33,253 nucleotides of DNA from Candidatus Methanomethylophilaceae archaeon (lineage in GTDB: Archaea > Thermoplasmatota > Thermoplasmata > Methanomassiliicoccales > Methanomethylophilaceae), in contig JAFYAH010000053.1 of assembly GCA_017540825.1 (NCBI GenBank), positions 1-33,253 on the forward strand, in the 5' to 3' direction. Positions 837 to 30,637 of this stretch are shown piece after piece (the stretch's first letter is position 1; every line of letters starts with the position of its first letter). Under the pieces are notes generated by a model that did not search any database, had not been told where the DNA came from, and saw only the letters and a program-made list of their open reading frames with translations. A program made the position numbers and the translations under genes.

Positions 837-871
837 TCCCCCTCTCAAACCCCTTACCTAAACCTCTTGCC

Positions 872-908: not shown

Positions 909-928
909 TCCGCATCCGATGGCCTTTC

Positions 929-3064
929 ATGTCCGATGTGTCCATAGAGCTTCGCAGCAAGGGGAAGGAGTGCTGCGGCTGCTATTCCTGCATCAACGCC
1001 TGCCCGCATGACGCCATCAAGATGGTCACCGACTTCGAGCTCAACAGCAGGGCCGTGGTGGACCTGGTATCCTGCGTCGACTGCGGCCTCTGCGTCAAAG
1101 CCTGCCCACAGCTCAACATCAGGCACGACAACAGCCCCAGGCCAAGATGCTACGCGTTCAAGGCCGACGAGGACGAGGTCCTGAGGAGCTCTTCGGGAGG
1201 GGCGTTCATGCCGATGGCCGAGGCGATCCTGTCCCGGGGAGGGCTCGTGTGCGGAGTCGTGTTCGACGAGGGCCTCAACGCCGTGTACAGGATGACGCAG
1301 GACATCGAGGAAGTCCGCAGGATGCAGAAGTCGAAGTACGTGTTCAGCGAGATGGGGGCCATATACAAGGACATCCAGGAGGCGCTGAAGTCAGGGAAGG
1401 AGGTCCTCTTCGTAGGCTGCCCCTGCCAGGTCGCGGCGGTGAAGGGATCCATGAAGGACGCCGAGGGCCTCTACACGGCGGACCTGATCTGCGCCGGCCT
1501 CCCTTCCAAGGAGGTCTACAGGAGGTATCTGGACGAGCTCTCGGCGAAGGGCAAGGTCGTCGGGCTGGGATTCCGCGACAGCAGGCTCCCGTACGGAACC
1601 TTGACGGTGAAGCGCGAGGACGGCAGCGAGGAGACGAGGTTCAAGGACCTCTACTTCGCAGGTTTCCTGAGGCACATGTTCAAGAGCGGGGCCTGCGCGG
1701 ACTGCGAGTTCGCGACGATCCCGAGGCAGGGCGACGTGACCATAGGCGACCTGTGGAACTACGACAAGATCCTCTACGACGTGGACGGGTCCACAGGCAT
1801 CAGCTGCGTCCTTGTGAACAACGACAAGGGGAAGCTTCTGTTCGACGAGATCTCCAAGAAGGCTACATACCTCCGCGAGATCCCCATGTCCTTCGTCATG
1901 CGCTTCAACAGGTTCAACGCCAAGCGTCCTGCAGGCCCCGCCTCGGACAGGCTCCTGTATCTCGTCGAGCGCGGGTACAGCATCACGAAGGCGCTGGACT
2001 ACTCCATCAACTCCAAGTACGACGTGGCCATCACGGGCTTCTGGAGAGCCCCCAACTACGGCGGCGACCTCACGTACTACGCGCTGTACAATGTAATCCT
2101 GGACATGGGGCTGGAGCCGATCTTCGTGGAGGCCTGCAATCCCAAGCCTGTGGGCGCCCGCCCCGCCAGCCCGAAGTACCTCAAGCATGCGTATCCGGAC
2201 TTCAGCATCGCGCCCTGGTATCCGAACAAGGAGAGGCAGGCGGAGATCAACCTGCGCGTCAAGAACGTCGTGGTCGGGTCGGACCAGGTGTGGAACCCCA
2301 GGCTGCTGTCGCCTGAAAGCCTCAAATCGTACTCCTTGGACTTCGTGTCGTCCTGGCGCAACTCGGTGGCCTACGCCTCGTCGTTCGGGGTCACGACCTA
2401 CGACACGGACACCCCGCAGAAGGCCGAGCACATCCGCATGCTCAAGCGCATCAAGCATGTCTCGGTGAGGGAGCTTTCCGGCGTGGACATATGCAGCAAG
2501 TTCGGCATCGAGGCCAAGCACGTCCTGGACCCCGTAATGCTCTGCGACATGGAGCATTACATGGAGCTCATAGACGAGGCGGACATGTCGTATCCGCCCA
2601 CTTACATGCTGGCGTTCATCCGCCATATCAACGTCCATATGGACCCCATGGCGATGTCGTCCCATCTAGGCCTCATGCCGATGAACGTGGGCGGACCGGA
2701 CTACGACTACAACAATCCTGCTCCGTATCCGATCACGAACGTCCGCACGGTGGAGAACTGGCTGAAGGCCGTATACAAATCCAGCTTCGTCCTGACGGAC
2801 TCGTTCCATGCGACCGTCCTCGCGATACTCTTCAAGAAGCCCTTCATATCGGTCTACGGCCGCATGGACGAGGCTTCAGGAAAGGGAAGGATGACCTCCC
2901 TCTTGAGCGTGCTAGGGCTCGAGGACCGCATCTACAGGACCACCGCGGACGCTATCGCCGCAGGGGCCCCGGACCGCCCCATAGACTACGAGGCGGTGTT
3001 CGAGAGGCTGGAGCCCTTCAGGAAGGAGTGCCTCCAGTGGCTCAGCGATGCTCTGGAACGTCGA
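929..3064 (+). CDS. Ferredoxin/FrhB-like - polysaccharide pyruvyl transferase fusion protein, paralog 1
   Basis: This is a 711-residue fusion when ended at CGA 3062-3064; the next standard stop is TGA 3086-3088, eight codons on. Two [4Fe-4S] motifs come first (C15/16-C18-C21-C25 and C49-C52-C55-C59). An FrhB/FdhB-like F420-reductase beta domain follows (about 75-350; GCPCQVAAVKG, DVTIGDLW). A polysaccharide pyruvyl transferase (PF04230-type) domain forms the C-terminal half (about 380-700; NYGGDLTYYALY, VVGSDQVWNP, LTDSFHAT). Such proteins occur in surface-polysaccharide loci, where the flavin/Fe-S part is thought to supply reducing power; that role is inference here. I chose the ATG at 929 because it lies just before the first cluster and 26 nt after a TATA box. 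The body holds no CGA codon. The end WLSDALE matches the paralogs, and the next codons are CGT CGA GGT CGA. Confidence 0.85.
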
Positions 3065-5213
3065 GGTCGATCTCCAGGGCGTCCTTGAGCCATGCCAGCG
3101 ACTCCGCGCGGAGCTCGTCGAGCCTCTTGTGGACCTTGTCGAAGTCTATCTTCTTAGCGTACGCATGGTCGGTGATGGCGTCCCATGTGGTCGGATACAT
3201 GCGGTCTTCGAGCTGGAATAGGCCCAGCAGCGACCTGAAGCGGTCCAGCCCGGAATCCTCGCTCATGGCGCCGTACACGACGATGAACTGCTTGCCGAAC
3301 ACTATGGACAAGGCCGCTCCGTGGAACGAGTCCGTGAGGACGTACTCGGAATGGTAGATCGTCTTGATCCAGTTCTCCACCGTCTCCACGTTGGTCAGAG
3401 GGTAGTCCGTCTCCGCGGTGTTGAGGTCGATCCCAGGGCCGGCGACGTTCATGAACGGAAGGTCGACGTAGTTGCTCAGCCTGTTGGGGTCCAGATGGGG
3501 CCCGGCGTGCCTCACGAAGCAGAGGCCGTAGCCGTCCGGAACCGGGACGGTGGCCTTGGCGAGGAGCGCATGGTAGTGCTTCATGTTGCACAGCATCATC
3601 GGGTCCAGGACGTGCTTGGCCTCGACGCCTAGGCTCCTGCATATCTCCACTCCCGACTTCTCGCGGACCGACACGTGCCTTATGTTCTTTATCGCCTCGG
3701 CCTCTGCTTTCTCGGTCGCGTCCGAGGGGACGAAGCTGGACCTTCCGAAAGAAGAAGCGTACGCCACGGTGTTGCGCCAGCTGGCGGCGAAGTCCAGAGC
3801 ATAGGAGAGCACGGTCTCCGGGTGATCGGGGAAGAGCTTGCTGTTCCACACCTGGTCGGACCCCACGAGCAGGGTGTAGACGCGGTGGTTGATCTCCATC
3901 TGCTCGTCCTTGTTGTGGGCCCACGGTATGATGCTGTACATGTGGTACCTGTTCATCAGGCGCTTGGGGCTCATCGGCACCTTGCCGCCGCTCTTGCTGC
4001 GGGCCTCTATCATGGCAGGCTCCAGCCCGAGGTCCTCGATCACGTGGTAGAGGGCGTAGTACGTGAGGTTTCCTCCGTAGTTGGGAGCGCGCCAGAGCCC
4101 TATTATGCCTACGTCGTACTTCCATTTGAGGCAGTATTTGACGGACTTCTTTACGCTGTGTCCTTTCTCGAGCATATGGAAGAACCTCTCCTGGGCGAGA
4201 TGCCTCTCGCGGGTGGGGTTCAGCCTGTTGAAGCGCTTGACGAAGTCGAACGGGACCTCCCTCATGAACGCCGCATGCTTCGAAAGGACGCTGAGCAGCT
4301 TCCTCCCGTTGGCGTTGTTAACGAGGGCGCAGCTGACCCCTTTCTTGCTGTCGAAGTCGTGGAACATCTTCTCGGACTCCCACAGGTCGCCGATGGTCAG
4401 GTCGGCCTGGCGCGGGGCGGCGGCGAAGTCGCATTTGATGCAGCTGTCGTTCTTGTAGAGGCTCCTGTTGAAGCCGGCGACGAACTCGTCGTTGTAGTTT
4501 ACCTTGCTGGTCCCGTCGTCGAACCTGATGACCAGGGTTCCGTACGGAAGGCCTTTTCTGCGGAACAGGACGTCCTTTATCTTCTTCCCTTCGGACTCCT
4601 CTCTAAGATACTGCTTGAATACGGTCTTGGATGGAACCCCGGAGCAGATGAGGTCGACGGTGTACAGGTTTTCGTCGTTTCCTATGTATCTCTTGAGGGC
4701 GTTGACGTGGCAAGGCAGCCCGAAGAACAGCACCATCCTTCCGCCTTTGAGGCAGGCTTTGATATCTTTGTAGACGGTCCCCATCTCGCTGACCACGTAC
4801 TTCGACCCATGCATCCTGGAGACGACGTCCTTGTCGTCGGTCAGCTTGTACACTACGTTGAAGTCGTCGTCGTAGACGGTCCCGCATACGCAGCCACCTC
4901 TGCGGAGCGCCCAGTCGGCCAATACGTAGAATATGCCTCCGGAGGAGCTCTTGGCGAGGATGCGGTCCTCGGCAACGAAAGCGTAGCTTCTGGGTTGCTT
5001 CATGTTCCCGACCGCCTCGGCGTCGTTTAGCGCGGGGCAGCCTCTGGTGCATTTGCCGCAGTCGATGCAGAGCACGGGATCCACCGAAGGCCTCAGGAAC
5101 CCCCTCTCGCTTGTTACGATGCTTATAGCTTTCTTAGGGCAGGTGCTCATGCATGCGGAGCAGCAGACGCACTCCTTCTCGGAGTCCTTCAGAGCGTCGA
5201 CGACGTTGGCCAC
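3042..5213 (-). CDS. Ferredoxin/FrhB-like - polysaccharide pyruvyl transferase fusion protein, paralog 2
   Basis: This 723-residue paralog has the same domain order: [4Fe-4S] motifs at C15/C18-C21-C25 and C49-C52-C55-C59, then an FrhB-like domain (FFGLPCHVNALK, ADLTIGDLW), then a pyruvyl transferase domain (NYGGNLTYYALYH, LLVGSDQVWNS, LTDSFHGA). The start is GTG at 5213; an in-frame TAG lies three codons upstream, so no longer start is possible. A TATA element (5233-5240) lies about 24 nt before it, so the mRNA is probably leaderless. It ends in TGA after WLKDALE plus nine residues and overlaps the convergent paralog 1 by 23 nt. It is divergent from paralog 3, with 92 nt between them. No in-frame CGA anywhere. 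Confidence 0.87.
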   Translation of the reverse strand: MANVVDALKDSEKECVCCSACMSTCPKKAISIVTSERGFLRPSVDPVLCIDCGKCTRGCPALNDAEAVGNMKQPRSYAFVAEDRILAKSSSGGIFYVLADWALRRGGCVCGTVYDDDFNVVYKLTDDKDVVSRMHGSKYVVSEMGTVYKDIKACLKGGRMVLFFGLPCHVNALKRYIGNDENLYTVDLICSGVPSKTVFKQYLREESEGKKIKDVLFRRKGLPYGTLVIRFDDGTSKVNYNDEFVAGFNRSLYKNDSCIKCDFAAAPRQADLTIGDLWESEKMFHDFDSKKGVSCALVNNANGRKLLSVLSKHAAFMREVPFDFVKRFNRLNPTRERHLAQERFFHMLEKGHSVKKSVKYCLKWKYDVGIIGLWRAPNYGGNLTYYALYHVIEDLGLEPAMIEARSKSGGKVPMSPKRLMNRYHMYSIIPWAHNKDEQMEINHRVYTLLVGSDQVWNSKLFPDHPETVLSYALDFAASWRNTVAYASSFGRSSFVPSDATEKAEAEAIKNIRHVSVREKSGVEICRSLGVEAKHVLDPMMLCNMKHYHALLAKATVPVPDGYGLCFVRHAGPHLDPNRLSNYVDLPFMNVAGPGIDLNTAETDYPLTNVETVENWIKTIYHSEYVLTDSFHGAALSIVFGKQFIVVYGAMSEDSGLDRFRSLLGLFQLEDRMYPTTWDAITDHAYAKKIDFDKVHKRLDELRAESLAWLKDALEIDLDVPEHR

Positions 5214-5305
5214 GCGCGTCTATGGACTGCCAGATAAAAATGTTCTTTGGTTACAACCTGATGGTTCTTGTTCAGTTTTTATATCTTGAACCGCTACTCC
5301 TGTGC
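5214..5305. promoter_or_regulatory. Divergent promoter region of paralogs 2 and 3
   Basis: This 92-nt AT-rich gap carries two outward promoters. For the minus gene, gataaaaa (5233-5240) is centred about 24 nt before the GTG at 5213. For the plus gene, tttttatatc (5276-5285) is centred 26 nt before the ATG at 5306. Between them is the palindrome ggttacaacc, followed by another ggtt, a candidate site for a shared regulator. Confidence 0.6.
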
Positions 5306-7420
5306 ATGGCTGATAACGTCGAGACCAAGCTCGAAGAATCCAAAAGGATATGCGTAGGCTGTTCCGCATGTCGGAGCGTATGCAAGTTCGACGCGATACG
5401 CATGAGCTTGGACTCGGAAGGGTTCGAGAAGGCTGTCGTGAGCGAGTCCGCATGCAAGGAGTGCGGGGCGTGCGTCAGGGTATGCCCGCAGATCACCGGT
5501 CCTTCGGAAGGCAACCCGTCTCCGTCCAGCTATGCCGTCAAGGCAGATGCGGAGACCTTGGCCGCGAGCTCGTCGGGCGGAGCGTTCAGCCTCCTTGCGG
5601 AATGGGTCCTCTCCAAGGACGGCTACGTCTGCGGGACGGTCTTCGACAAGGACCTCAACGTGGTCTATATCATGACCAAGGACAGGAGCGTCGTCTCCAG
5701 GATGCGCGGCTCGAAGTACGTGTTCAGCGAGATGTCCGGGATCTACGACGAGATCAAGAAGGCCCTCGTGGACTCGTACGTCCTGTTCGTCGGCCTCCCG
5801 TGCCAGGTTCAGGCCCTTAAGAACTATCTCGGCGAGGACGACCGCCTGTACACCGTCGACCTCCTCTGCGGGGGGCAGCCGTCGAAAGGGATCTACCGCC
5901 GCTACCTTTCGGAGATCTCCGCCGAGAAGCCCGTGTCCAGCCTGAGGTTCAGGTCCAAGGACCACACCTACGGCACGCTGCTCATAGAGTACGCCGACGG
6001 GACAGAGAAGGTCTCGCTGGCCGACAAGTACTATGCCGCGTTCAACAGGCATCTGATCAAGAGCAACGCATGCAACGGCTGCCTGTTCTCCGACACCCCC
6101 AAGCCGGGCGACCTCACCATAGGCGACCTGTGGGGGGCGGAGAGGTATCTCCGCGACGTCGATCCAGAGGAAGGCGTCAGCGTGGTCCTGGTGAACTCGG
6201 AGAAGGGCGAAGAGGTCTTCCGCGAGATCGAGAAGGCCGTCCCTTACGTCCGCAGCGTCCCTCTGGGCTTCGTCAAGCGCTTCAACAGGTTCGGGTCCGA
6301 GCTCCCGGTCCATCCCGCCAGGAGGAGGCTGTACAGCATGCTGGAGCGCGGATGCTCCGTCAGGAAGGCCATCGACTACTGCCTGGCAGGACGGTTCGAC
6401 GTAGGGATAGCGGGACTGTGGCGCGTGGACGACTACGGCGGGGAGGCGTCGTACTATGCGCTCTTCACGTTCCTCAGGGACAAGGGCATGGAGCCCCTGC
6501 TTATAGAGTCTAGGAGCGCCATCCAGGGCCTTCCGGATGAGCCTACCCTTCTGAAGACCCGCTATGCGGTCAACAGCCGCGCCAGATGGTACAAGAGCCC
6601 GACTGACCAGGGGGAGCTCGGGGCGAGGGTCTTCAACTTCATCGCCGGGCCCGGCCCTGTCTGGGACAGGAGGATAATTGGGAATGACGTCATCGGATGC
6701 TATGCCCTGGACTTCGTCTCCCCATGGAGGAACAAGATCTCCGTAGCGTCGGTCATAGGAACGGACTCCTACGGAGGCAGCGAGGAGGAGCTCCAGGACT
6801 TCAACGCCTTGGTCGGAAGGCTGGACAAGGTGTCGGTCGGCGACGAGTCCACAAGAGAGGTCTTCGAGAAGCTAGGGATCGAGGCCAAGGTGATCCTGGA
6901 CCCGGTGTTCCTCTGCGACCCGTCCTGCTACGCCAGCCTCATAGAGAGCTCCAAGGCCGTGTTCCCGGACGGATTCGTCATGACGTACATGATGCATCGC
7001 AGCATCGACGGGTTCGAAGGCATACTGGACCACATAGGCATGGGGACGATGAACGTCGGGAGCTCCATGAAGGACTTCAACGTCAAGGGAGGACTCCCCC
7101 AGACGGACGTGTACTATGTGGAGAACTGGCTCAAGTGCATCAAGAGCGCCTCCTTCGTCCTCACGGACTCGTTCTACGCCGTGGCCTTCTCCATAATCTT
7201 CAGGAAGCTCTTCATCGCCGTGGTCAAGGACTCGGCGAGCAAGGGCAGGATGCAGACCCTCCTGTCCTCGCTGGGGCTGGAGAGGCGCATGTTCGGAAGC
7301 TACGAAGAGGCCTTGAGCTCCGGCGCATTGGATGAGAACATCGACTACGATGAGGTTCACAGGAAGCTCTCGGCCCTCCGCGAGGAGTCCGAGTCCTGGC
7401 TGCTGGGATCGTTGGTCTGA
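5306..7420 (+). CDS. Ferredoxin/FrhB-like - pyruvyl transferase fusion protein, paralog 3 (degenerate transferase domain)
   Basis: This 704-residue paralog keeps both [4Fe-4S] motifs (C16-C19-C22-C26; C50-C53-C56-C60) and the FrhB-like domain (VGLPCQVQALK, GDLTIGDLW). Its pyruvyl transferase half differs at motifs the other three share: GSDQVWN has become GPGPVWD, DSFH has become DSFY, and NYGG has become DYGG. The family's conserved histidine is thus lost, so this domain may not be catalytic; that is inference. The ATG at 5306 is 26 nt after a TATA box (leaderless). It ends in TGA at 7418-7420, only 3 nt from the CGA end of the convergent paralog 4. No in-frame CGA. Confidence 0.85.
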   Translation: MADNVETKLEESKRICVGCSACRSVCKFDAIRMSLDSEGFEKAVVSESACKECGACVRVCPQITGPSEGNPSPSSYAVKADAETLAASSSGGAFSLLAEWVLSKDGYVCGTVFDKDLNVVYIMTKDRSVVSRMRGSKYVFSEMSGIYDEIKKALVDSYVLFVGLPCQVQALKNYLGEDDRLYTVDLLCGGQPSKGIYRRYLSEISAEKPVSSLRFRSKDHTYGTLLIEYADGTEKVSLADKYYAAFNRHLIKSNACNGCLFSDTPKPGDLTIGDLWGAERYLRDVDPEEGVSVVLVNSEKGEEVFREIEKAVPYVRSVPLGFVKRFNRFGSELPVHPARRRLYSMLERGCSVRKAIDYCLAGRFDVGIAGLWRVDDYGGEASYYALFTFLRDKGMEPLLIESRSAIQGLPDEPTLLKTRYAVNSRARWYKSPTDQGELGARVFNFIAGPGPVWDRRIIGNDVIGCYALDFVSPWRNKISVASVIGTDSYGGSEEELQDFNALVGRLDKVSVGDESTREVFEKLGIEAKVILDPVFLCDPSCYASLIESSKAVFPDGFVMTYMMHRSIDGFEGILDHIGMGTMNVGSSMKDFNVKGGLPQTDVYYVENWLKCIKSASFVLTDSFYAVAFSIIFRKLFIAVVKDSASKGRMQTLLSSLGLERRMFGSYEEALSSGALDENIDYDEVHRKLSALREESESWLLGSLV

Positions 7421-7423
7421 GGC

Positions 7424-9523
7424 TCGTTCCAGAAGGGCCTTCCTCAGCCATCTGATGGAGGCCTCGCGGTTCCTTTCCAGCCTGGTGTAGACGCTGTCGT
7501 AGTCTATGGCCGCTTCCAGGGCGCCGGACTCGACAGCCTCGTCAGGGGTCCTGAAGATGCGGTTCTCGAGGCCAAGGGTCTCCAGTAGCGTGGTTATCCT
7601 TCCGACGCCGGAGTTCTCGCTCCAGCTCCCGATAAGCGTGACGAACTGCTTCTTGAAGAGTATCGAGAAGACCGTCCCGTGGAAGGAGTCGGTGACGACG
7701 AAGGATGCGCCTCTGATGCACTTCATCCAGTTCTCCAGCGTGCCCATGTTGGTGCGAGGGTACTCTATCTTCTCGTTGATGTTGGCGGACGCGTTGCCCG
7801 CGGTCACAGGGCCGTACCCCAGCCTCTTGTATATGGCCTCCATCCCGCCGAAGTTTACGGCGAACATCATGTAGTTGAAGACGTAGCGGTCCGGGTATCT
7901 GGCCGTCGACGCGTCCGAAAGAGCCTCGAAGTGGCGGACGTCGCAGAGCATCACTGGATCCATGATTATGTCGGCCTTCGCCCCCATGTCCCTGCAGAGG
8001 TCCACCGCGGACTTCTCGCGGACGGAGAGATGGTCGAACCTTCTTAGGAGGCGTGCGAACGACTCGCGCTCCTCGTCGGTGCCCTCGAACCTGTTCGTTC
8101 CGAAGGACGCCGCCACCGAGACCTTCTTCCTGTCGTCGTGGACGAAGTCGAGGGCGTAGCATTCCAGGGTGTTCTGGCTCACGAAGTTCCTGTTCCAGAC
8201 CTGGTCGGAGCCTACCACGAACGTGCTCACCCTGGAGTTCAGCTCCTCCTGCTCGCTCTTCTTGGAGTACCAGCGAGCGATGCTGTAGAACGGGTACTTG
8301 GTGCTCAGAAGCGGAGGGCTCTTAGGGGCCCCTTTCGCGTCATTCCTGTACTCTATGAGTATGGGCTCAAGCCCCATGTCCTGGATGATGTGGTAGAGGG
8401 CGTAGTAGGTGAGCTCCCCGCCGTAGTTCATGACGCGCCAGAAGCCTGTTATCCCGACGTCGAACTTCCATCCCAGGCAGTAGCGCACCGACTTCGACAC
8501 GGAATGGCCGCGAGCCACCATGTGGAACATCCTGATCCATCCCAGATGCAGGTTGCGGTCGGGGCTGAAGCCTCTGTTCTCGTCCAGAACGCTCATCTGG
8601 ACGGGGCTGAGGTACTCCGAGAGGTCGGTGATGTCGTTGAGCAGGGCGGCCCCTTTCATGTCGTTGACCATGACGAGGCTGGTCCCGACCTTCTCCGCCG
8701 AATGGTTCCCGAGGGTGATGTTGCCCACGCGCGGAATCTTCGCGAACATGCATCTGGAGCAGGCCTGGTTCACTATCAGGCTCTGGCTGATCGCCCGCAT
8801 GTAGGGATCCTTGTTGGACATCTTGACGCTGCCGTCCTCGTAGGCGATGGAAAGGGTGCCCTGGGGCTCGCCCTTTGGCTCGAATATGATCCTGGACACT
8901 CTGCCTGACGCGGAGATCTCCTCGACGTACTTGTCGAATATGAGGGTGGACGGCTGGCCGTTGCATGCGATGTCCGCGGTGTACAGGTTCTGGTTTCCGC
9001 CGACGTAGTTCTTCACGGCCTGGACCTGGCACGGGAGCCCCACGAAGACGACGACCTTCTCCTCGTCCAGCCTGGACTTTATCTCTTTGTAGATGTCTCC
9101 CATGTCGCTGTACGTGCACTTGATCCCGTGCATCGGCTCGACGGCGCCCATGTCGTCGGCTATGGCGAACCTGGTCCTCAGGTCGTCGCCCATCACCGCC
9201 CCGCAGATGCTCCCGCCACGGTCGAACGCCCATCTGGCCAGAAGGGTGAAGACTCCTCCGGATGAGCTCGACCTGAGGGTGCCTTCGTCCGCCCGCACCG
9301 CGTAAAGGGCCGTCTTGTCGCCGAACGTCTGGTTGAGCTGAGGGCAGACCGCGGAGCATCTGCCGCATCCGACGCACTTTTCTGCGTCGATCCTGGATCT
9401 GTAGAAGCCATGGTCGTCTGCTTGGAGGGATATCGCACCGTGCTCGCATGCGTTTGCGCAAGCGCGACATCCTATGCATAGGAGGCGCGACTCTCTGAGC
9501 CTTTCGACGACGTTGGAGACCAT
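7424..9523 (-). CDS. Ferredoxin/FrhB-like - polysaccharide pyruvyl transferase fusion protein, paralog 4
   Basis: This is a 699-residue paralog when ended at CGA (complement of 7424-7426). Under the standard code it would continue 184 codons antisense through paralog 3 to TAG at 6872, giving 883 residues with a tail unlike any paralog. [4Fe-4S] motifs are C16-C19-C22-C26 and C50-C53-C56-C60. The FrhB-like domain has VGLPCQVQAVK, and the transferase domain has NYGGELTYYALYH, VVGSDQVWNR and VTDSFHGT. The conserved end (WLRKALLE) falls directly before the CGA, as in paralog 1. The ATG at 9523 lies 26 nt after a TATA element inside an inverted repeat. No CGA in the body. Confidence 0.86.
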
Positions 9524-10231: not shown

Positions 10232-10585
10232 TCGGCTGATCTCCACATCCTCGTCCGGATCGACGAAGCGGATGGAGCAGTCGCGCTTGAGCCCGAGCCC
10301 TCCGGCGACCTCTATCGCCTTTATAATCCCTGCCATGACCGGGCAGGCCGCATGCGGTATGCATTCGTCGGCCAGGCCGTAGATCTCGGACTCGTGTATG
10401 TTCGCTTCCACTTCCGAGTATGCGCTGATCGGCTGAAGGCCCCAGGAAAGCTTCAGCACGTTGGGGCAGTCGCTCTTGATGTCCAGATGGACCATCCCCA
10501 TGTCTTCTTTGGCGGTTATGAGCGTGCGCATCTTACATACCCCCGCGTCGACCAGCACCCTGCATTCTCCCTCGTTCTCGCTCAT
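10232..10585 (-). CDS. DUF6951 family protein
   Basis: This small methanogen-type protein resembles DUF6951: VDAGVC near the N-terminus, SDCPNV, and the C-terminal block HAACPVMAGIIKAIEVAGGL followed by a KxDxSIxF strand. The conserved cysteines (about C18, C39, C80) suggest metal or Fe-S binding; that is inference. The ATG at 10585 has a good ribosome site (taaggag, about 8 nt upstream) and overlaps the end of the upstream regulator gene. An in-frame CGA at 10232-10234 ends it at 117 residues; the next standard stop is TGA seven codons on (10211). This is its only CGA. Confidence 0.7.
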
Positions 10586-11537
10586 TGTCGTCGCTCCTTA
10601 GCCTTATGAGGTTGTCTATCCCGGCCATCGACCTGATGTCGACCACGCCTATGGCGGCTATGATGCGGCTGTCCAGCTCTATGGGGGTGACGATGACCCT
10701 TATCCCTTTGTAGGGGCCGGACACCGCTATCTTGCGTATCGTGGTCCCTGCGTTTATGACCTCTTCCAGGACCTGCCCCGTGTACGCGTTGTCGATGACT
10801 TTTCCGTTCTCGATCCTTATGCCCAGGTTGTCCCTGCTTTTAGCGCATACCGGCAGCCCGCCCACGAGGTCGTGGATGGCGAAGGCCAGCGAGATGAGCT
10901 CGTTCCCGGTGCTGCGGGACGACAGTATGTCCTCCAGCTCGCGGTTGAACTTCAGCCCGCCCATGAGCTTCAGGCCGGCGTTGACCGCGCCCATCTCTGC
11001 GGCCAGGTCGGTCTGACCGGTCCCGATTATGATGACGTCGTCGTTCTTCAGAGGGATCTTCGACCTTATCCTGTCCTGGAGGCTCTTGTCCACAGGGTAC
11101 TCCGACCCGGGGAACATCAGCTTGCCGCCCGAGTAGACGAGCGTGGTGGCGCCGGTGGCTCCCGACTTTATGGCGTTGTCGCGCTCCTCGCACCCGAACC
11201 TCACGGTGCTCGCCATCTTGGGCACGCGGACGGCGACGTCCCTCTCGCCTATCGTGAGGTTGCTTACTCCGATGTCCTTGGCGATGTCCATATGGGTCTT
11301 CTTCCTGAACTCCATCCCTTTGCCCGTCAGGAGGATGCCGCTCTTGCCTATGGTGATGAGCCCTTGCTCCTGGAGCAGGGAGATCACGGTCCTGGCGCTC
11401 CCTTCGCCTATCCCCAGGGCCTCGGCCAGCTTCTTTCTTCCTATGGCCTCCTTGTTGTCTAGGATCTCCAGAGCCTTCCACAGGTGGTAGTCGTTGAATT
11501 TCGGGAGCGGTCCGCCCATCTTGGTAGAACTGGACAT
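10578..11537 (-). CDS. DUF4443-DUF2111 fusion: winged-helix regulator with ligand-sensor-like domain
   Basis: Residues 15-75 form a winged-helix DNA-binding domain (IGRKKLAEALGIGEGSARTV, LLQEQGLI). They are followed by the rest of a DUF4443 domain (about 80-200). A DUF2111 domain follows (about 220-310; GGLPVCAKSRDNLGIRI, YTGQVLEEVI, GIRVIVTPIE, IAAIGVVDI). DUF2111 is largely confined to methanogens. The fusion suggests a transcriptional regulator that senses a small molecule; the ligand is unknown. The first in-frame CGA (10578-10580) ends it at 319 residues after RSDDNE and gives an 8-nt overlap with the DUF6951 start. The standard code would add 15 codons containing three more CGA, to TAA 10533. 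The TATA at 11560-11568 predicts a leaderless mRNA. Confidence 0.8.
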
Positions 11538-11685: not shown

Positions 11686-13299
11686 ATGGCCAAAGACTGC
11701 GTCGACCTTCTTGTCATCGAGAACGTCTCCAAGTCCTTCAACGGACGGTGCGTTCTGAAGAACGTAAGCGCCAAACTCACCACTGGTAAGATACTCGGAC
11801 TCGTAGGAAAGAGCGCCGCCGGAAAGAGCGTCCTCATCCATATGCTGAGGGGCAGCGAGGAGTACGCGCCCGACTCTGGACGCGTATTGTACCACGTCAA
11901 CCGCTGCAAGGAATGCGGAGACCTGGACCTCCCTATAGAAGGGGTCCCCTGCGTGAAATGCGGCGGAAAGACCGAGAAGCTCTGCGTGGACTACTGGGCG
12001 CTCAAGGAGGACGACCCATTGAGGGCGGCGGTGAAAGCGCACGTAGCCATCATGCTCCAGAGGACCTTCGCCCTCTTCGGCGACAAGACCGTCATAGAGA
12101 ACGTGATGGAGGCCGTCACGCCGGACTACCAAGGGGACAGGAGGATCAGCCGCGCCATCGAGATGATCGAGGCAGTCAACATGACCCACAGGACCACGCA
12201 CATCGCCAGGGACCTCTCCGGAGGGGAGAAGCAGCGCGTCGTCATGGCCAGGCAGCTCGCCAAGGAGCCCCTGTTCTTCCTCGCGGACGAGCCCACCGGG
12301 ACCCTGGACCCCAACACGGCGGAGATCGTGCACCAGTCCCTCATCGACTACGTCCGCAAGATGAACATATGCATGGTCTTCGCGTCCCACTGGCCCGAGG
12401 CCATCACCAGGATGGCCGACGAGGCGATATTCCTGGACGCCGGGGAGGTCAGGAAGCAGGGCGACCCGGCAGAGGTCACCAGCCTCTTCATGAAGGACTA
12501 CCACTTCGAGAAGCAGGCCGCCGGGGAGCTCGGTGAGCCCATCATAAAGCTGGAGGACGCCAAGAAGCACTACTTCTCCGTCGTGAGAGGGGTGGTCAAG
12601 GCCGTGGACGGAGTGTCCTTCGAGATCAGGGAGAGGGAGGTCTTCGCCCTGATAGGGTATTCCGGGGCCGGGAAGACGACCACCTCCCGCATGATCGCCG
12701 GGATGACCCCCGCGACGTCGGGGAAGGTGTCCATCAAGATAGGGGACGACTGGGTCGACATGTCCGAGAGCGGCTTCGCAGGGAAGGGGAGGGCCACCCC
12801 GTACATAGGGGTCCTCCACCAGGAGTACACGCTGTACCCGTTCGACACCGTCCTCCAGAACCTGACCACCTGCATAGGGATGAAGATGCCCGCGGAGCTG
12901 GCCAAGGTCAAGGCGATACAGGTGCTCCTGAGCGTGGGATTCCCCAAGGAGACCATAGAGAACACGCTGTACGCGTACCCCGACTCGCTCTCCGTGGGCG
13001 AATGCCAGAGGATAGCTTTCGCGCAGGTGCTCATCAAGGAGCCCCGCATCATCATACTGGACGAGCCTACCGGGACCATGGACCCGATAACCAAGACGAT
13101 CGTCGCCAAGTCCGTCATCAGGGCGAGGGAGACGCTGGGGGAGACTTTCATCGTCGTTAGCCACGACATGGACTTCGTGATGAACTGCTGCGACCGCGCC
13201 GCCTTCATGAAGAACGGCGTCGTGGTCTCCATCGGCGAGCCCGAGGAGATCCTCGAGGAGTTCAACATGGAGCCAGTGCCCGAAGGTGAAGAGATTTGA
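11686..13299 (+). CDS. atwA: Methyl-coenzyme M reductase activation component A2 (AtwA)
   Basis: This 537-residue double ABC-type ATPase drives the ATP-dependent reductive activation of MCR. The first nucleotide-binding domain has Walker A GKSAAGKS (41-48), signature LSGGE (177-181) and Walker B FFLADEP (197-203). The second has Walker A GYSGAGKT (324-331), signature LSVGE and Walker B IIILDEP. A four-cysteine zinc-ribbon-like insert (C74, C77, C89, C92) lies in the first domain, and there are no membrane segments. It is the first gene of a nine-gene operon. The TATA box is 27 nt before the ATG, so the mRNA is probably leaderless. The stop TGA overlaps the TTG start of mcrC. No CGA in 537 codons. 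Confidence 0.97.
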
Positions 13300-13916
13300 A
13301 GCAGAAGATGGGGAGGCACCTGAGCTTCGTCGAGTGCAGGGAATCGATGGGGCTGGGCGTCGGAGGAGGGCTCGCCCAGAGGGCCACCATCTCCGAGTCC
13401 GGAAGGGACGTCGTGGCGGTGGCTATGGGCCCCGGAAGAAGGCACATCACGAAGCCGGTGTGCGAGATAACGTACGCGCTGCGCGAGGAGGGCATAGACA
13501 CCAGCGTCCTCGTCGTCAACGCGGGCTCGGGGGTCCCTGCTGACGCCCCCGACATGACCACCGGGTCCTGCTTCGGCCTGGACCCCATAGAGGTGGAGAG
13601 GATACAGCAGTACAAGGTGGCGCTGATCCACCTGGGCAACGTGAGGGCGCACATCATCTACAAGGCGAGGCTCATCCTCAGGAACGTCGACATACCCGCA
13701 ATAGTCGTCGCCCAGTGCCCCATAGACTTCGAGGACTTCGCCGCCATCGGCATCAAGACCTCCCAGGTTATGCCGCCGGACGACAAGATCCAGACCAAGG
13801 GGGAGATCGTCCACATCGTGACCGGCGTCGTCAGAGGGGTGACGTGCACCCAGGACAAGCTGGACGAGATCGTCTCGAAGGTGCAGTCCATGCTGCCGGA
13901 GTGTGGTCTCCGATGA
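13296..13916 (+). CDS. mcrC: MCR operon protein C (McrC), part of the MCR activation complex
   Basis: McrC is a component of the MCR activation complex together with A2, Mmp3, Mmp7 and Mmp17 (known from Methanothermobacter). Family motifs are [51 protein letters not shown] and [10 protein letters not shown]. The start is taken as TTG (13296), which overlaps the atwA stop as TTGA and has the site ggtga 6 nt upstream; an ATG four codons later (13308) is the alternative. It ends with tandem codons CGA (13911) and TGA (13914), and the mmp3 ATG overlaps both. If CGA is a stop the protein has 205 residues. Here mcrC sits beside atwA rather than inside an mcrBDCGA operon. Confidence 0.95.
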
Positions 13917-17500: not shown

Positions 17501-17509
17501 GGGGTATCG

Positions 17510-18076
17510 ATGGAGACAGAGGTAATAGGCGACGACAGGTTCGGGAACGACGCGTACGCCCACCTGTTCGACGAGATCATGAGCGACCTGAACAAGGCAG
17601 TCCTCATCGAGAGGGCGAAGCTCGTCCTGAGGCCGGAGACCCCGCTGTTCGTGTTCTCGATAGTCCTCAAGGCGGAGCCGACGGTCAAGACGATATCCGA
17701 CGTGTCCAACGTGAGGGCGGAGGCCGAGAACATCCACCTGACCATAGTCCAGGAGCGCTACGCCCCCGCCATCCTGTCCTCGCTGTGGGGAAGGTACGGG
17801 AGGAGGGCGGTGATCCAGCAGACCCGCTTCGACCTCGACGTGCTCGGGGCGAAGGAGGACGACGTGGCCGCCATGGTGGTGTCGTCCGGCGAGGAGGACA
17901 AGCGCGAGATACTGGGAGCTATCTGGAGGTCGATGCCCGAGGGCATAAAGAACCGCGAGGTCCTGATGGACGGCAACGTGATCACCGTCGTCGCTACCGA
18001 GGAGATAATGCGCCCCGAGATGCTCGGCGAGGGCCGGGCCGTCCACGAAGAGATGGGGGGTGCTTCCGCTGTTCGA
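17510..18076 (+). CDS. mmp17: Methanogenesis marker protein 17 (Mmp17)
   Basis: Mmp17 (TIGR03291) is a known member of the purified MCR activation complex. This copy is 188 residues when ended at CGA 18074-18076, close to the usual family length of about 185. Recognisable parts are PLFVFSIVLKAEP, RYGRRAVIQQTRFDLDVLG and NVITVVATEEIMRPEML near the end. Under the standard code the frame would run 109 more codons inside mmp7 out of phase, to 18403, giving an arginine/glycine-rich tail that looks non-coding. The ribosome site gagggg lies about 5 nt before the ATG. With CGA as stop it overlaps mmp7 by 17 nt. A one-base deletion in the G-tract at 18055-18060 is the alternative explanation. Confidence 0.9.
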
Positions 18077-22474: not shown

Positions 22475-23137
22475 GTGGTATGCATCCCAGCAGCGTCCAA
22501 GGCTCGCATTCTCGGAAATCTCAAGAAGTCCGTCGAGACGTGGGATTTCGCCCTCATGGAGAAGAGCGTGGACCAGGCCATGAAGATGGGCATACCTGCT
22601 GAAGAGATCATCGAGGAGGGGCTCGGGAAGGGGATGGAGTCGATCAGCAAGCTGTTCGACAACGCCAAGATCTACCTTCCCCAGGTCATGGCCGCCTCCA
22701 GGACGGTCGAAGGCGCGATGAAGAAGCTGGAGCCCATCCTCAGCTCCGACGCCGCCGTCTACCGCGGGACCATCATAATGGGCTCGGTGGAGGGGGACAT
22801 CCACGAGATAGGGAAGAACGTGTGCTGCGCCATGCTCCGCGGGGCGGGGTACAAGGTCATCGACCTGGGGTCGGACGTGTCTCCCGACGATTTCCTGAAC
22901 GCTGCCGAGGAGAACTCCGCGGACGTCATCGGGGCTTCGGCGCTCATGACCACCACCCTCCAGATGCAGAAGAGGCTGGTCCAGACAGCTAACGAGAGGC
23001 AGTCCACCGTGATGATGATCTTCGGAGGGGCCCCGTGCAGCAAGGAGTGGGTCGAGAAGATCGGAGGGGACGGCTATTCCGCTTCCGGGACCGAGATAGT
23101 CACACTGGTGAACAGCCTAATGAGCCGCAAGGGCCGA
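22475..23137 (+). CDS. mtmC: Monomethylamine corrinoid protein (MtmC-type)
   Basis: This corrinoid-carrying protein accepts the methyl group from the adjacent MtmB methyltransferase and passes it toward coenzyme M. A helical cap comes first (about 10-90; IPAEEIIEEGLGKGM, YLPQVMAASRTVEGAM). A B12-binding Rossmann domain follows, with the cobalt-ligating motif GDIHEIGKN (108-116; His110), GASALMTTT (153-161) and FGGAP (183-187). Ended at CGA 23135-23137 it has 220 residues, the normal size. The standard code would add 52 unrelated residues (to TAA 23293) that run into a pyrimidine tract, a TATA-like box and hairpins. The start is GTG at 22475, probably leaderless. The gene precedes mtmB, whereas in Methanosarcina mtmB comes first. 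Confidence 0.88.
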
Positions 23138-23514: not shown

Positions 23515-24894
23515 ATGGCTGCACGCAGGTATGTCGACGTCTTCGAGGCGTATGACCGCTTCACCCAAGGCTCCAAAGTGGACGAGAAGGACTGGGACTA
23601 CAACATCATACCCGCCGCTGCTGCGCTCATGAAGAACCGCTACGAGCTCGATTTCGGCGACAAAATCGTGCCGGAGGACCCGGAGATCGCCGACAGGCTC
23701 TTTCTGGCCGGGGTGGACATGCTCCTCGAGACCGGGATATACAACATCGACCTCGGCCGTGTGATGCACATCGACGAGGACGAGCTATACGAGGGCATAA
23801 AGATGGCCCCCAGGAAGCTCACCCTCGGCCATGGCAAGGACAAGTGCAAGTGCAAGGCCCGCGTCGGGAACTCCAAGAAGAGGCCGATAATACAGGGCGG
23901 ACCGACGGGCGCCCCCATGTCCGAGGACATATTCATCTCGCTAATCCAGTCGTACGCCGAGGAGCCGATGGTGGACGCAGTCGTGAGCGGGGTCCTGGAG
24001 ACCGTGGACGGCCACCAGGTCCTCACCAACTCCCCCTGGGAGATCAAGGCGACCATGGCCGAGGTCAGGTACGTCCGCGAGGCTGTGGCCAACGCGGGAA
24101 GGCCCGGGATGGCGATCTAGGGGCCTCAGACCCCGCTGTCCCCCAACGGACGTCTGGCCGCTGGGCTGGGACCGAACGGGATGAGGTACTACGACCCCCA
24201 CGAGTGCTCCCAGCTCAACGAGCTCAAGGTCGACATGGGCGTCCTGAACATCATCTCCGGGTGGCACTCCTCCGGCGACGTGATAATAATGGAGCAGATG
24301 CCGATGTTCGGAGGCTACGCCGGAGGGATAGAGGAGACGGCGATATGCGACGTCGCCACCACGCTCGCCTCCTTCGCGGCGTTCAACAGCGACATACACC
24401 TGGACGGCCCGATCCACATAAGGTGGGGGACCACAACGACCCGGGAGACGCTTCAGGTCGCCTCGCACGCCGCCGCCGCGCTGGACTACAACACGGACCT
24501 CCTCCTGGCCAACCAGTACTACACCATGGCCGGGCCCTGCACCGAGATGTGCCTCCTGGAGACCGCCGCCCAGGCCATAGCCGACACGGCGTCGGGAAGG
24601 GAGCTGCTGTCCGGGGTGGCATCGGCCAAGGGGGTGTCAACCGACAGGGCGACCGGCCTGGAGGCCAGGATGCTCGGGGAGGCTTCCGCCGCGACATGCG
24701 GGATGGACATACCCGAAGTGAACGCGATCCTCAACAAGATCGTGTCCAAGTACGAGATGAACTTCTTCAACGCCCCGCTGGGTAAGACCTACCGGGAATG
24801 CTACAACGTCGACGAGTCCACGCCCTCGAACGAGTACCTGAACATTTACGACACGGTGCTGGACACGCTTCTGGACTGCGGCCTCGGCTTCTGA
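23515..24894 (+). CDS. mtmB: Monomethylamine:corrinoid methyltransferase with pyrrolysine (MtmB)
   Basis: MtmB transfers the methyl group of monomethylamine to the corrinoid of MtmC. The frame is interrupted only by TAG at 24118-24120, which is codon 202, the position of pyrrolysine in Methanosarcina MtmB. Before it the protein reads AGRPGMAI, and after it homology continues: HECSQLNELKVDMG, EQMPMFGGYAGGIEET, HLDGPIHIRWGTT, NQYYTMAGPCTEMCLLE and GREILSGVASAKG-like. Total length is 459 residues, as in the family. The ATG at 23515 fits the family start (MAARRYVDVFEAYDR). It ends in TGA and overlaps the convergent HAD gene by 11 nt. No in-frame CGA. Confidence 0.97.
24118..24120 (+). other. Pyrrolysine-encoding TAG codon in mtmB
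   Basis: TAG in frame at codon 202 of mtmB, with MtmB homology on both sides. It is the only in-frame TAG inside a confident gene in the window, and no confident gene ends in TAG. Confidence 0.95.
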
Positions 24895-25564
24895 ACAGCC
24901 TTGCGCAGTCCCCGGCCTTCTCGAGGATTATGATCGAGGGGTCCGTGCTCTCCCACAGCTCCCTCCTTCCGCTTCCGGTGAGCACGCCTGCGAACAGCGC
25001 TCCCGCCCCGTGCGCGGACATGTAGTCGGTCAGGTTGTCGCCTATGTAGAGTATCTCCGACGGCTCCACGCCCAGCAGCTCCGCGAACTCGCGCATGGCG
25101 ACGGGAGATGGCTTGGCGTTGTCGTAGGACGAATGGTCCCTTCCCATGACGACGTCGAACCCTTCTCTGGTGCCTGTATGGCGGAGCGCGGATTCGGCGT
25201 ACTCCAGGCTGCCGCGGGTGAGGAGGCCGGTCTTGAGGCCGAGCGACCTCAGCTCCGCAAGGCATTCTTCGGACCCGGGAAAGGGGACGGCCTCGTCCAC
25301 GAACTCGATCTCGACGCGGGTGAAGGCGGCGTCTATCTCGTCGCTTATCGCCTGGTACTCGTTCTCGCGCCCGTGCGCTTCGAGCCAGCGGAGTATAGGG
25401 TAGCGCGGCCTCTTGATGAAGGCCTCGCTGTAGACCTCGTCGAAGGGGACGCCGTGGGACAATAGTACCTTCTTATCAGCCTCTCCGAGCTTCGAGTAGT
25501 CCACATGTGTCTTCAGGAACGTCCCGTCCAGGTCGAACCCCACGGCTTTGATCCTGTCTATCAT
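24884..25564 (-). CDS. HAD-superfamily phosphatase (phosphoglycolate phosphatase-like)
   Basis: All four HAD motifs are present: DLDGT (11-15; D11 nucleophile, D13), T116 in GLLTRG, K151 in NAKPSP and GDNLTD (175-180). The helical cap domain between motif I and II (about 20-95) is of the phosphoglycolate phosphatase type. Substrate unknown. Ended at CGA (complement of 24884-24886) it has 226 residues; the standard code would add 39 codons antisense through mtmB to TGA 24767, giving a Cys/Arg-rich tail. The ATG at 25564 lies 4 nt after the ycaO stop, so the two genes form an operon. The body has no CGA. Confidence 0.87.
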
Positions 25565-27187: not shown

Positions 27188-27706
27188 TCGGGGCAGCTCC
27201 TTGTCCTTGACCTTGAGCACGATGCTGGAGACGCCGCGGCAGGACCTGAGCTCCGGGATCAGCTCGGGAGGCACCGAGCCGTCTATGACAACCGTGAGCA
27301 CGGAGTTGTCCCTGTCCCCTCTGTCGTCCACGGCGGCCTGCCTTATGGAGAGCCCGTGCCTGTAGAGGACGCCCGTGATGTCGGAGACGATGCCGGACAT
27401 CTTCGCGTCGGTGGGGATTATCTTGATCGCCGAGCATCCGATCTCCGGCGCGAGGTTCTCCATCGAGAGCATGCACTCCAGCTTCGAGAATATGGCGTCC
27501 AGCTGAGGGGTGGCGGATATGCGCTCCAGGGTGGTGCGGACTATCCTCCTGTCGACGTCCGCGGCGCGGCAGATGGCGGAGTCGCTCTGCTCTATGTCGC
27601 CGCAGTACGCCTTTCCACCGGATACCCTGATCCCATGCGAGAAGAGGAGGCTCGCCACCTTCCTCTGTGAAGGGTATTTGCTGAAATGAGTATCCAGTAA
27701 ATCCAT
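27188..27706 (-). CDS. ACT-domain protein, predicted regulator of amino-acid metabolism (COG2150-type)
   Basis: The N-terminal part (1-80) is a helix-turn-helix-like region with SQRKVASLLFSHGI and AICRAADVDRRIVRTTLERI. The C-terminal part (about 90-168) is an ACT domain (AKMSGIVSDITGVLYRHGLSIRQA, LTVVIDG, LIPELRSCRGVSSIVLK). This layout matches COG2150. The effector is probably an amino acid (inference). The first in-frame CGA (27188-27190) ends it at 172 residues after KVKDKELP. The standard code adds 30 codons, two of which frame another CGA region, and runs into RNase P RNA to TGA 27098. The TATA element at 27726-27736 lies 25 nt before the ATG. Confidence 0.82.
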
Positions 27707-28155: not shown

Positions 28156-28170
28156 TCGTCGAGCTCGCTC
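28150..28170. terminator. Palindrome holding the CGA codons of two convergent genes
   Basis: gagcga (28150-28155) and tcgctc (28165-28170) are inverted copies with a 9-nt loop. Read from the left, chorismate mutase ends GAG CGA; read from the right, the transporter also ends GAG CGA. The structure could be a bidirectional terminator. Confidence 0.6.
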
Positions 28171-29073
28171 CACCGGCTTCTTGGTGTATATCGAGAACCA
28201 CAGGGACTCCACCATCATGCACACGAAGCATGGTATCACCGATTCCGGGGTCCCGGACAGGAGGATCATGCACATAGACACCGACAGGCCGGTGTTCTTC
28301 CACACGCACAGGACGTGATACACCGGGGCCGAGCGCTTGTCCGCGCCAGTCTTCTTCAATATCGTCCTGGAGACGAGTATCAGCGCCGCGAGCCTGGCGA
28401 GGACAGCCACGACGACCAGGAGGAACATGTCCGGGTAGGATATGAGGTATCCGCGGTTGGCGTTCACCGAGAGGAACAGCATCACCGCCATCATGAGGTC
28501 TATGACCGGGACCTTGAGCCTGGCGGACAGGCGCAGCCTCCTCAGCGGGACCGTCACGACGGCCGGGACGACGATGAACAGGACGATGTACTTCAGTATC
28601 TCGAGAGGGTCGACCGCGTCCCCGAGGAGGGCGAAGGAGATCAGCGGGGCCAGGGCGATCCCCGCCACGTACGTGGAGGCCACCGCGACCACGGCGACGT
28701 TCACGCTTCCCTTCATTAGGACGGCGGCGGTGACCACGGATATGGCGCAGGGCATGGAGGCAAGCAGGACCCATCCGTGCCACATGGCCGCATGGTCGGG
28801 GATGAACAGCGCCCCGACCGCGAGCGTGACCAGGGTGTTCACGACGTAGCACAGCAGCACCGACAGCAGGATCCCGTGCCTGTGCTCAGAAATATCGTCC
28901 TTGGACAGCCTGAGCCCGTCCATGGACAGGGCCATCTGCACCATCAGGGCTACGACGATGAGCTCCGAGGACGGCAGGTCCACGGTGTCCAGGAGGAGGC
29001 TCAGGGCGAGCGCGCCGGCTATCCAGACGCGCAGGTCCGAGACCACGTCGTACGCTTCCATCATGAGGCGCAT
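28165..29073 (-). CDS. Bile acid:sodium symporter (BASS) family membrane transporter
   Basis: This 302-residue integral membrane protein has about nine hydrophobic segments, including VWIAGALALSLLLDTV, ILLSVLLCYVVNTLVTLAVGAL, MPCAISVVTAAVLMKGSVNVAVVAVASTYVAGIALAPLI and IVLFIVVPAVVTV. The SMPCA...GS pattern is typical of BASS/SBF carriers, which take up organic anions with sodium; the substrate is unknown. Ended at CGA (28165-28167) the last residues are charged (YTKKPVE). The standard code would add 108 codons antisense to chorismate mutase, to TAG 27841. ATGs at 29064 or 29061 fit a leaderless start from the TATA element at 29082-29092 better than 29073. The body has no CGA. Confidence 0.8.
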
Positions 29074-29130: not shown

Positions 29131-30111
29131 TCAAACATAGGAAGAGACGTCCAGCAGGGGGCTCTGGGGCTCCGAGCTCTCCAGCCTGGCGCCTTCGGCT
29201 CCCGCGGCGACGATGTAGGCGGTCCCGCCGCGGCTCTCGATGACCGAGGCGACCTTCCCCGGCTCGTCGGTGAGGGCGACCATGCAGCCGCCTCCTCCGG
29301 ACCCGGTCAGCTTCGCCCCGTAGGAGTATGGCATGGAGGCGTTGACCAGCTTGTTCAGCTCCTTGCAGGAGACGCCGAGAATCGAGAGGAGCTTGTGGTC
29401 CATGAGCATCATCCGCCCCAGGGTCTCCACGTCGTTCCGCCTGAGGGCCTCGTACCCGCTCAGGGTTATGTTGCCGATCTCCTCGATCATCTCCGTCGCG
29501 AAGTTGCTCCTCTTGGCGAAGCGCCTGACCTTGTCCACCTGCGGGCCGGTGGGCGCCTTGATGCCGGTGTTGCCGATCACGAACGTCATGTCGGGCACGT
29601 CGATGTCCGAGACGCACCAGGACCGGCTCCCGCGGCTGAACTTCCAGAGCTTCTTCTCCTCGCAACCGGGGATGTTCACGCCGATGCCGTTGCCGTGGAC
29701 GCAGGCGGACGCGTCCATGGGGCTCCCGCTGCCCTGCGCCGCGAGCTCGGCGTTGTACGCCTCCTCCACGAGCTCCCTCTCGCCGGGGTCGTCCCCCGCC
29801 ATCGCGCCGAGCGCCAGAGCCACGGCCGCAGACAGCGCGGCGGAGGACCCCAGCCCGGCTCCGGCGGGGATGTCGCTGCGGGTGATGAACTCCACCGCAT
29901 GGCGGAGGTTGCGGGTCAGGTAGCGGAAGTGCGGCTGCTTGCCGAACTCTATCGGCTCGCCGTTCAGGGTGTTGCGCTTCGCGCGCTTGACGCTGCAGGT
30001 TATCCTGCGGTCGGTGGCCAGGACCACGGCCGGCTTCCCGTAGACGACCGAGTGCTCCCCCAGTATGACGAACTTCCCGGGGGCGGATGCGGTGATCCAT
30101 TCCCTGGTCAT
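29131..30111 (-). CDS. mvk: Mevalonate kinase
   Basis: This 326-residue GHMP kinase phosphorylates mevalonate in isoprenoid synthesis for archaeal ether lipids. Motifs are the N-terminal SAPGKFVILGEHSVVYGKPA (about 8-27), the ATP-binding PAGAGLGSSAALSAA (about 84-98), SGSPMDASACVHG (about 129-141) and the C-terminal KLTGSGGGGCMVAL. The ATG at 30111 overlaps the upstream gene's TGA (ATGA) and fits the family start. It ends in TGA at 29131. No in-frame CGA. Confidence 0.93.
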   Translation of the reverse strand: MTREWITASAPGKFVILGEHSVVYGKPAVVLATDRRITCSVKRAKRNTLNGEPIEFGKQPHFRYLTRNLRHAVEFITRSDIPAGAGLGSSAALSAAVALALGAMAGDDPGERELVEEAYNAELAAQGSGSPMDASACVHGNGIGVNIPGCEEKKLWKFSRGSRSWCVSDIDVPDMTFVIGNTGIKAPTGPQVDKVRRFAKRSNFATEMIEEIGNITLSGYEALRRNDVETLGRMMLMDHKLLSILGVSCKELNKLVNASMPYSYGAKLTGSGGGGCMVALTDEPGKVASVIESRGGTAYIVAAGAEGARLESSEPQSPLLDVSSYV

Positions 30112-30632
30112 CGGTCTTCCAGTCCGTATCTCGCCATCTCTTCGCGAATGGCGTCGGAGGGGTTCCTCTTGTTCAGGAGGGGCTGGGGTATGTACCACCA
30201 CTGGTCCGACATCTCGTCCAGCCTCCTGTCGTAGTCCTCCTCGCTCTCCCCTTCGTTCCTCTCGACCTTGGACAGGGCCTCGTAGAGCTCCTTGTAGAGG
30301 TCGATCCCGAACTTCTTGTTCACTATGCCGACGCCGATGTAGCCGTCTATGCACTGGGCGACCTCCTCCGCCGTCTCGGGCGAGAGGCTGTCCATGACCA
30401 TGTCCAGGACGCTGTTGGCGGTCAGCTTGAAGATCATCTGGCGCTTGGCCTCCTCGGGCAGGCTGGGGTCCTCCAGGGCGGATGCTATGAGGTCGTTCCC
30501 GAAGAGGTCCGACATGGCCCTGACCCTGTCGGGGTTCCTGCCGAAGGTCATCTTCTCGTGGGCCTCTTCCGGGGACAGCTCGGGCTCGTCGTCGCCGAAC
30601 AGCCCTGCGTTGGGGTCTTTGTCGTCTGCCAT
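30108..30632 (-). CDS. Unrecognised acidic protein upstream of mevalonate kinase
   Basis: I do not recognise this soluble, acidic protein of 173 residues. The N-terminal 30 residues are acidic and proline-rich (GDDEPELSPEEAHEKM). A helical middle part follows (SLPEEAKRQMIFKLTANSVLDMVMDSL), then FGIDLYKELYEAL and a tail with DQWWYIPQPLLNKRNP. The ATG at 30632 has the ribosome site ggtga 5 nt upstream; the GTG at 30641 overlapping the aminotransferase stop is an alternative. It ends with tandem codons CGA (30111-30113) and TGA (30108-30110), overlapped by the mevalonate kinase ATG, exactly as at the mcrC-mmp3 junction. No other in-frame CGA. Confidence 0.75.
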   Translation of the reverse strand: MADDKDPNAGLFGDDEPELSPEEAHEKMTFGRNPDRVRAMSDLFGNDLIASALEDPSLPEEAKRQMIFKLTANSVLDMVMDSLSPETAEEVAQCIDGYIGVGIVNKKFGIDLYKELYEALSKVERNEGESEEDYDRRLDEMSDQWWYIPQPLLNKRNPSDAIREEMARYGLEDR

Positions 30633-30637
30633 TTCCT

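Follow-up and report, generated by a model that had tools for sequence, protein, structure and literature searches.

The window analysed here, a stretch of 33,253 nucleotides, is one entire contig (JAFYAH010000053.1) of the assembly GCA_017540825.1 from Candidatus Methanomethylophilaceae archaeon (genome G000; 2.37 Mb, 73 contigs), and it carries four related genes, paralogs 1 to 4, the last two of which converge at a CGA codon. Judging from sequence comparison, it is very probable that in this archaeon and its genus CGA has joined TGA, TAA and TAG as a fourth stop codon, that it is read by the release factor aRF1, and that aRF1 tunes its own synthesis through readthrough of a CGA within its own gene. 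Termination at CGA is strongly inferred, and recognition of CGA by aRF1 and autoregulation of aRF1 are what we infer from the pattern described below. The genus (Methanomassiliicoccales), with 31 genomes, is taken as that of isolate ISO4-G1, represented by the single-contig genome G007; ISO4-G1 is a methanogenic archaeon of sheep rumen origin with a published genome (PMC4824259). The closest named relative found for G000 is Thermoplasmata archaeon SIG7.

Convergent paralogs at a CGA codon

The features of the locus are as follows.

5306..7420, plus strand: paralog 3, 704 residues, TGA stop at 7418-7420; its SIG7 ortholog stops at CGA
7424..9523, minus strand: paralog 4, 699 residues, with CGA as its apparent stop; a fusion of Fe-S, FrhB and PS_pyruv_trans domains (Pfam PF04230, PF04432, Fer4)
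7424..7426, minus strand: the CGA that would act as the stop of paralog 4, the first in-frame CGA after WLRKALLE, where the coding signal stops
6872..7423, minus strand: open frame past the CGA of paralog 4, antisense to paralog 3, judged non-coding

An earlier note on this DNA had claimed that the TGA of paralog 3 and the minus-strand CGA of paralog 4 lie 3 nt apart (7421-7423), which is exact in the sequence, and that without a CGA stop paralog 4 would run on antisense through its neighbour, which we confirmed by reading the frame under translation table 11: it gains 184 residues (codons 700-883), reaches 883 residues and ends at a TAG at 6872-6874. The siblings, which the same note had proposed as a standard for the position of the C-terminus, have lengths of 712, 723 and 704 residues. 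Since the 184-residue tail matched no family in a Pfam search, is not conserved in SIG7 (where the ortholog has TGA three residues beyond the CGA column), and its frame holds five more CGA codons, we judge it to be non-coding. A conserved extension matching the tail, which would have spoken for the longer protein, was sought and is absent from the Pfam matches and from the SIG7 ortholog. SIG7 also swaps the stops at this locus, with TGA in the ortholog of paralog 4 and CGA in the ortholog of paralog 3; this swap, together with the genome-wide localisation of CGA and the ends of orthologs, supports the proposal that CGA is a stop. The evidence that weighs most comes from beyond the window, namely the in-frame CGA conserved in aRF1 and the changed tRNA-Arg(UCG), both described below.

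CGA across the genome

For the genome as a whole, 1.95 Mb of G000 were segmented by codon usage with CGA scored neutral. Over all six frames CGA occurs at 25.5 per 1000 codons, and within coding segments (496,358 coding codons) at 0.33 per 1000. When the coding segments are divided into tenths, CGA counts are 30, 1, 3, 7, 5, 11, 4, 1, 1 and 101, where the peak on the start side reflects segments that overrun upstream of the true gene start; CGG, CGT, CGC, TTA and TTG have no comparable peak at segment ends in the same segmentation. Downstream of 1,365 coding segments, the terminator met first is TGA in 906 cases, CGA in 338, TAA in 82 and TAG in 39, so about a quarter of genes would end in CGA, a figure that is approximate because some of the 338 are wrong calls. 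These CGA codons follow the coding end as closely as TGA does (median +1), the next standard stop is on average 71 codons (median 24) further downstream, and extension past CGA would overlap the neighbouring gene by at least 30 nt in 125 of 337 instances. The usual overlap layout of stop and start is also found, as CGATG, at 63 of the 338 CGA stops.

The CGA codons that remain inside coding segments of G000 are in-frame tandem genes (HypB-CGA-PurD, toprim-CGA-thymidylate kinase) or weak calls, with the exception of the one in aRF1; tandem genes as the source of every interior CGA is thus an explanation that is true for most of them and fails for aRF1. Among the tandem arrangements are two NifH-like/NifD-like pairs, each fused in frame by one CGA (G000:C23:93327-95429 and C58:15347-17608). 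Assembly error or contamination was ruled out, as independent genomes, some of them single-contig, show the same pattern. As a separate observation, G000 has a tRNA-Pyl (G000:C68:15328-15398), and in some genes TAG, the rarest terminator (39 of 1,365), may also stand for pyrrolysine.

Stops of orthologous genes

Twenty-six CGA-ended genes of G000 gave 141 comparisons with relatives, and in 140 of them no more than 10 codons separate the CGA from the relative's stop (98/98 inside the genus, 42/43 outside). The earlier note had asked which stop the homologs use at this alignment column; it is TGA, TAA, TAG or CGA, and outside the genus mostly one of the three standard stops. For pelota and for a 208-residue gene near aRF1, the CGA end is backed by dozens of genomes each. 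The reverse holds as well, with CGA in a genus relative at all 11 places (8 genes) examined where G000 has TGA. Starting from the relatives' proteins, G000 genes in which no standard stop lies close to the predicted end carry CGA there in 6 of 8 and in 17 of 22 cases. A version of the ortholog test based on the relatives' full set of open frames was swamped by antisense frames, and the final version used same-frame coding segments.

The CGA codon within aRF1

A genus-wide count of CGA covered 17 other genus genomes and SIG7 (84,867 coding codons), with approximately 20 kb sampled from each and the codon model of G000 applied, which replaced models self-trained on 20 kb after these misassigned the strand in G008 and G014. 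This sample holds four interior CGA codons, and every one of them belongs to aRF1. The codon encodes a conserved arginine 19 residues after the I of the NIKS motif, at about codon 78 of 410. Within the genus it is CGA in 25 of the 26 genomes where the site is visible, always as [G/T]CT-CGA-CTN-AAR-AC, and the lone exception is CGC in G028 (G028:C35:56468-56500). Sister genera (46 genomes) encode this arginine with AGG (11), CGC (10), CGT (10), CGA (7), AGA (7) and CGG (1). Such a pattern, with a codon missing elsewhere yet fixed in the release factor, is the one expected of a feedback switch.

The context of this codon is unlike that of real stops, since CT follows the CGA in just 5 of the 338 CGA stops of G000. 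In aRF1 the 0 frame stays open and conserved before and after the CGA, so that the full-length protein requires readthrough and not a frameshift. We sought a stimulatory element downstream of the CGA through conservation of synonymous sites, and none was seen, these sites not being unusually conserved. Comparison of eight sequences gave genus-specific residues in domain 1 of aRF1, including Q53 and T63; Q53 adjoins the conserved glutamate before NIKS, and 23 outgroup sequences have Y, F or L at its position.

The cognate tRNA

As ARAGORN, used by itself, overlooked some ten tRNAs and returned spurious long-intron arginine calls, tRNAs were taken from Rfam matches, processed by script and by eye; minimum-free-energy folding of the tRNAs produced no cloverleafs and was not used. 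A tRNA-Arg(UCG) was found in 19 genus genomes, G000 (C44:19985-20057) and 18 more. All 19 of these genes have a broken 31-39 pair (A.A or C.A), which leaves an anticodon stem of 4 bp, and in comparison tRNAs the same positions are paired (U-A in G034; C-G in G032, G033 and G039). In G028, the sole genome with CGC at the aRF1 site, tRNA-Arg(UCG) was not found.

Proposed mechanism and its weighing

We consider it likely that CGA became a fourth stop through an aRF1 broadened at the first codon position, together with self-regulation of aRF1 and a short-stemmed tRNA-Arg(UCG) shaped for competition with it. The single archaeal aRF1 would accept C or U at codon position 1, and UGA and CGA would then both terminate. 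The strong preference of these GC-rich genomes for AGG and CGC as arginine codons may have left CGA nearly unused in genes, and transitions from TGA to CGA at gene ends could subsequently have been tolerated. When plentiful, aRF1 would stop its own synthesis at its CGA; when scarce, tRNA-Arg would decode the CGA and full-length aRF1 would be made. The reader of this codon in most of the genus is presumably the tRNA-Arg(UCG) with the 4-bp stem, where the loss of the pair is observed directly.

Several observations weigh against this proposal. Retention of the cognate tRNA in a cell that uses the codon as a stop is unusual; loss of the cognate tRNA accompanies sense-to-stop changes and does not strictly define them, so that its retention leaves the classification standing. 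The aRF1 of the genus keeps NIKS and YxCxxxF intact, and Q53 and the other genus-specific substitutions are at most candidates for a changed reading of the first base. The ISO4-G1 subclade (G003, G007, G009, G012, G013, G019, G023, G025 and G030) is difficult in another way, as tRNA-Arg(UCG) was not found in it, and the subclade still carries TCT-CGA-CTC in aRF1. A pattern search for an intron-bearing tRNA-Arg(UCG) gave no consistent candidate in these genomes, and tRNA-Arg(CCG) was likewise not found in its results. In the 20-kb samples CGA is nearly absent from the subclade, from gene interiors and ends alike; most of its sampled genomes have no CGA-terminated gene there, and G007 had 2 of 22. 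With so few CGA ends, the case for CGA as a stop in the subclade rests less directly on the ends of genes.

It seems rather unlikely that CGA is a real stop and the CGA in aRF1 has no regulatory role, being a fixed relic or serving some other control such as frameshifting or pausing. The absence of a clear stimulatory element and of unusual downstream synonymous conservation would agree with this, as would a subclade that keeps the CGA with no tRNA-Arg(UCG) detected, and autoregulation is itself our interpretation; a neutral relic, however, would be expected to drift as it did in the sister genera, where six arginine codons occur among the 46 genomes, whereas 25 of 26 genomes of the genus share the CGA with the same flanking T and CT. 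Moreover, the frame continues unchanged, which makes a frameshift unneeded, and the tRNA is altered in the same genus. It is improbable as well that CGA is an unassigned or "hungry" codon, poorly read by any tRNA, at which stalled ribosomes are rescued, so that genes would avoid it in their interiors and tolerate it at their ends without recognition by a release factor. Such a codon would fit the subclade in which CGA is nearly lost and its tRNA was not found, but in G000 about a quarter of the genes meet CGA as the first terminator where conservation ends, in many cases with other stops a long way off, and G000 and most of the genus retain the tRNA. The sole gene with an interior CGA is, in addition, the release factor gene, which is sensible if the release factor acts on CGA.

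Editing of C to U in mRNA, by which a CGA at a gene end would become UGA and ribosomes would meet UGA only, has the appeal that a one-base change yields a normal stop and is compatible with the DNA data. It would need hundreds of target genes and yet only partial action in aRF1, and we know of no such editing in archaea, so we regard it as very improbable. Next to no credence can be given to CGA as an ordinary rare arginine codon, with paralog 4 ending 184 residues later. This is the reading under table 11, and related genera, too, use CGA sparingly for arginine; it is refuted by the genome-wide localisation of CGA at gene ends, the ends of the orthologs and the stop swap in SIG7, and the tail is without a domain.

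Relation to known systems

The nearest likeness of a fourth stop at CGA is with mitochondrial sense-to-stop reassignments, namely UCA and UCG in Sphaeropleales and UUR in Pycnococcus (PMC6821328). There, too, a sense codon has gone from gene interiors and stands at conserved ends. The mitochondrial release factor has lineage-specific changes, to which the genus-specific substitutions in aRF1 may correspond. Those cases, however, concern small organelle genomes and the bacterial-type factor mtRF1a, while here a whole archaeal genome, an aRF1/eRF1-type factor and CGA would be involved. The cognate tRNA was lost in the algal mitochondria (PMC6821328), whereas in the archaeal genus it persists in most species and the three standard stops are apparently still used.

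The interior CGA of aRF1 resembles the site in prfB (RF2), whose autoregulation is bacterial and uses a programmed frameshift, a slippery site and an internal Shine-Dalgarno sequence (PMC12421855): in both genes an early, conserved in-frame stop would be recognised by the gene's own product, given that CGA is a stop. aRF1 has no programmed frameshift, and the factor and the stop codon are unrelated, so it would work like prfB without being a member of that system. The broken stem pair of tRNA-Arg(UCG) has its counterpart in the 4-bp anticodon stems that help tRNA-Trp(CCA) read UGA in other organisms (PMC13092985), where likewise one anticodon-stem pair is lost in a tRNA required to read a stop. 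In contrast, the tRNA here is archaeal and already matches CGA, and its altered decoding against a release factor is presumed.

A survey with Codetta found reassignments of CGA, CGG and AGG in bacteria (PMC8629427), which are similar in that rare arginine codons change meaning and different in being sense-to-sense and bacterial. It inferred no archaeal sense codon to have moved to a different amino acid, and the method cannot detect new stops (PMC8629427). In the open-access literature we found no report of a CGA stop in archaea, and a review of recoding in archaea makes no mention of aRF1. Sense-to-stop changes were found reported solely from organelles, and for the combination of a cell, CGA, an aRF1-type factor and a feedback site no precedent was found in that literature.

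Other genes of the window

The remaining paralogs and the other genes of the window that apparently end in CGA are as follows.

926..3064, plus strand: paralog 1, 712 residues, CGA stop at 3062-3064, with TGA 8 codons beyond
3042..5213, minus strand: paralog 2, 723 residues, TGA stop
10578..11537, minus strand: DUF4443/DUF2111 protein, CGA stop at 10578-10580; the Pfam domains stop at residue 301 of 319
13299..13913, plus strand: McrC-like protein, CGA stop at 13911-13913, 5' end approximate
17510..18076, plus strand: DUF2113 protein, CGA stop at 18074-18076, 5' end approximate
22520..23137, plus strand: coding segment, CGA stop at 23135-23137, 5' end approximate
24884..25564, minus strand: HAD hydrolase (Pfam), CGA stop at 24884-24886
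27188..27664, minus strand: coding segment, CGA stop at 27188-27190, 5' end approximate
28165..29073, minus strand: SBF-family transporter (Pfam), CGA stop at 28165-28167
30111..30641, minus strand: coding segment, CGA stop at 30111-30113, with TGA immediately after

All four paralogs are, according to Pfam, fusions of Fe-S, FrhB/FdhB and polysaccharide pyruvyl transferase domains, and they occupy 437-9523 of the window as diverged copies of alternating orientation; two further PF04230 genes of G000 lie on contigs C31 and C50. Positions 11686-18998 hold a cluster of methanogenesis-related or archaea-specific families (McrC-like, DUF2113), in which two genes end in CGA. The SIG7 ortholog of the McrC-like protein (98% identity) has TGA at the same place as the CGA of G000, and in the DUF2113 protein the match to the Pfam profile (2-182 of 183) reaches residue 182 of 188.

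Significance

Known cellular variant codes are stop-to-sense or sense-to-sense. If the proposal for CGA is true, it would, as far as the open-access literature shows, extend sense-to-stop reassignment beyond organelles for the first time and give the first autoregulation of an archaeal release factor. Gene predictions under the standard code would be wrong at many 3' ends in the genus (about a quarter of genes in G000), some by hundreds of codons. The genus may also offer a natural system in which to study recognition of the first stop-codon base by an eRF1-type factor. The parts of the putative switch, i.e., codon, context, tRNA and factor, have all changed in this genus, and the cultured ISO4-G1 makes it open to proteomics.

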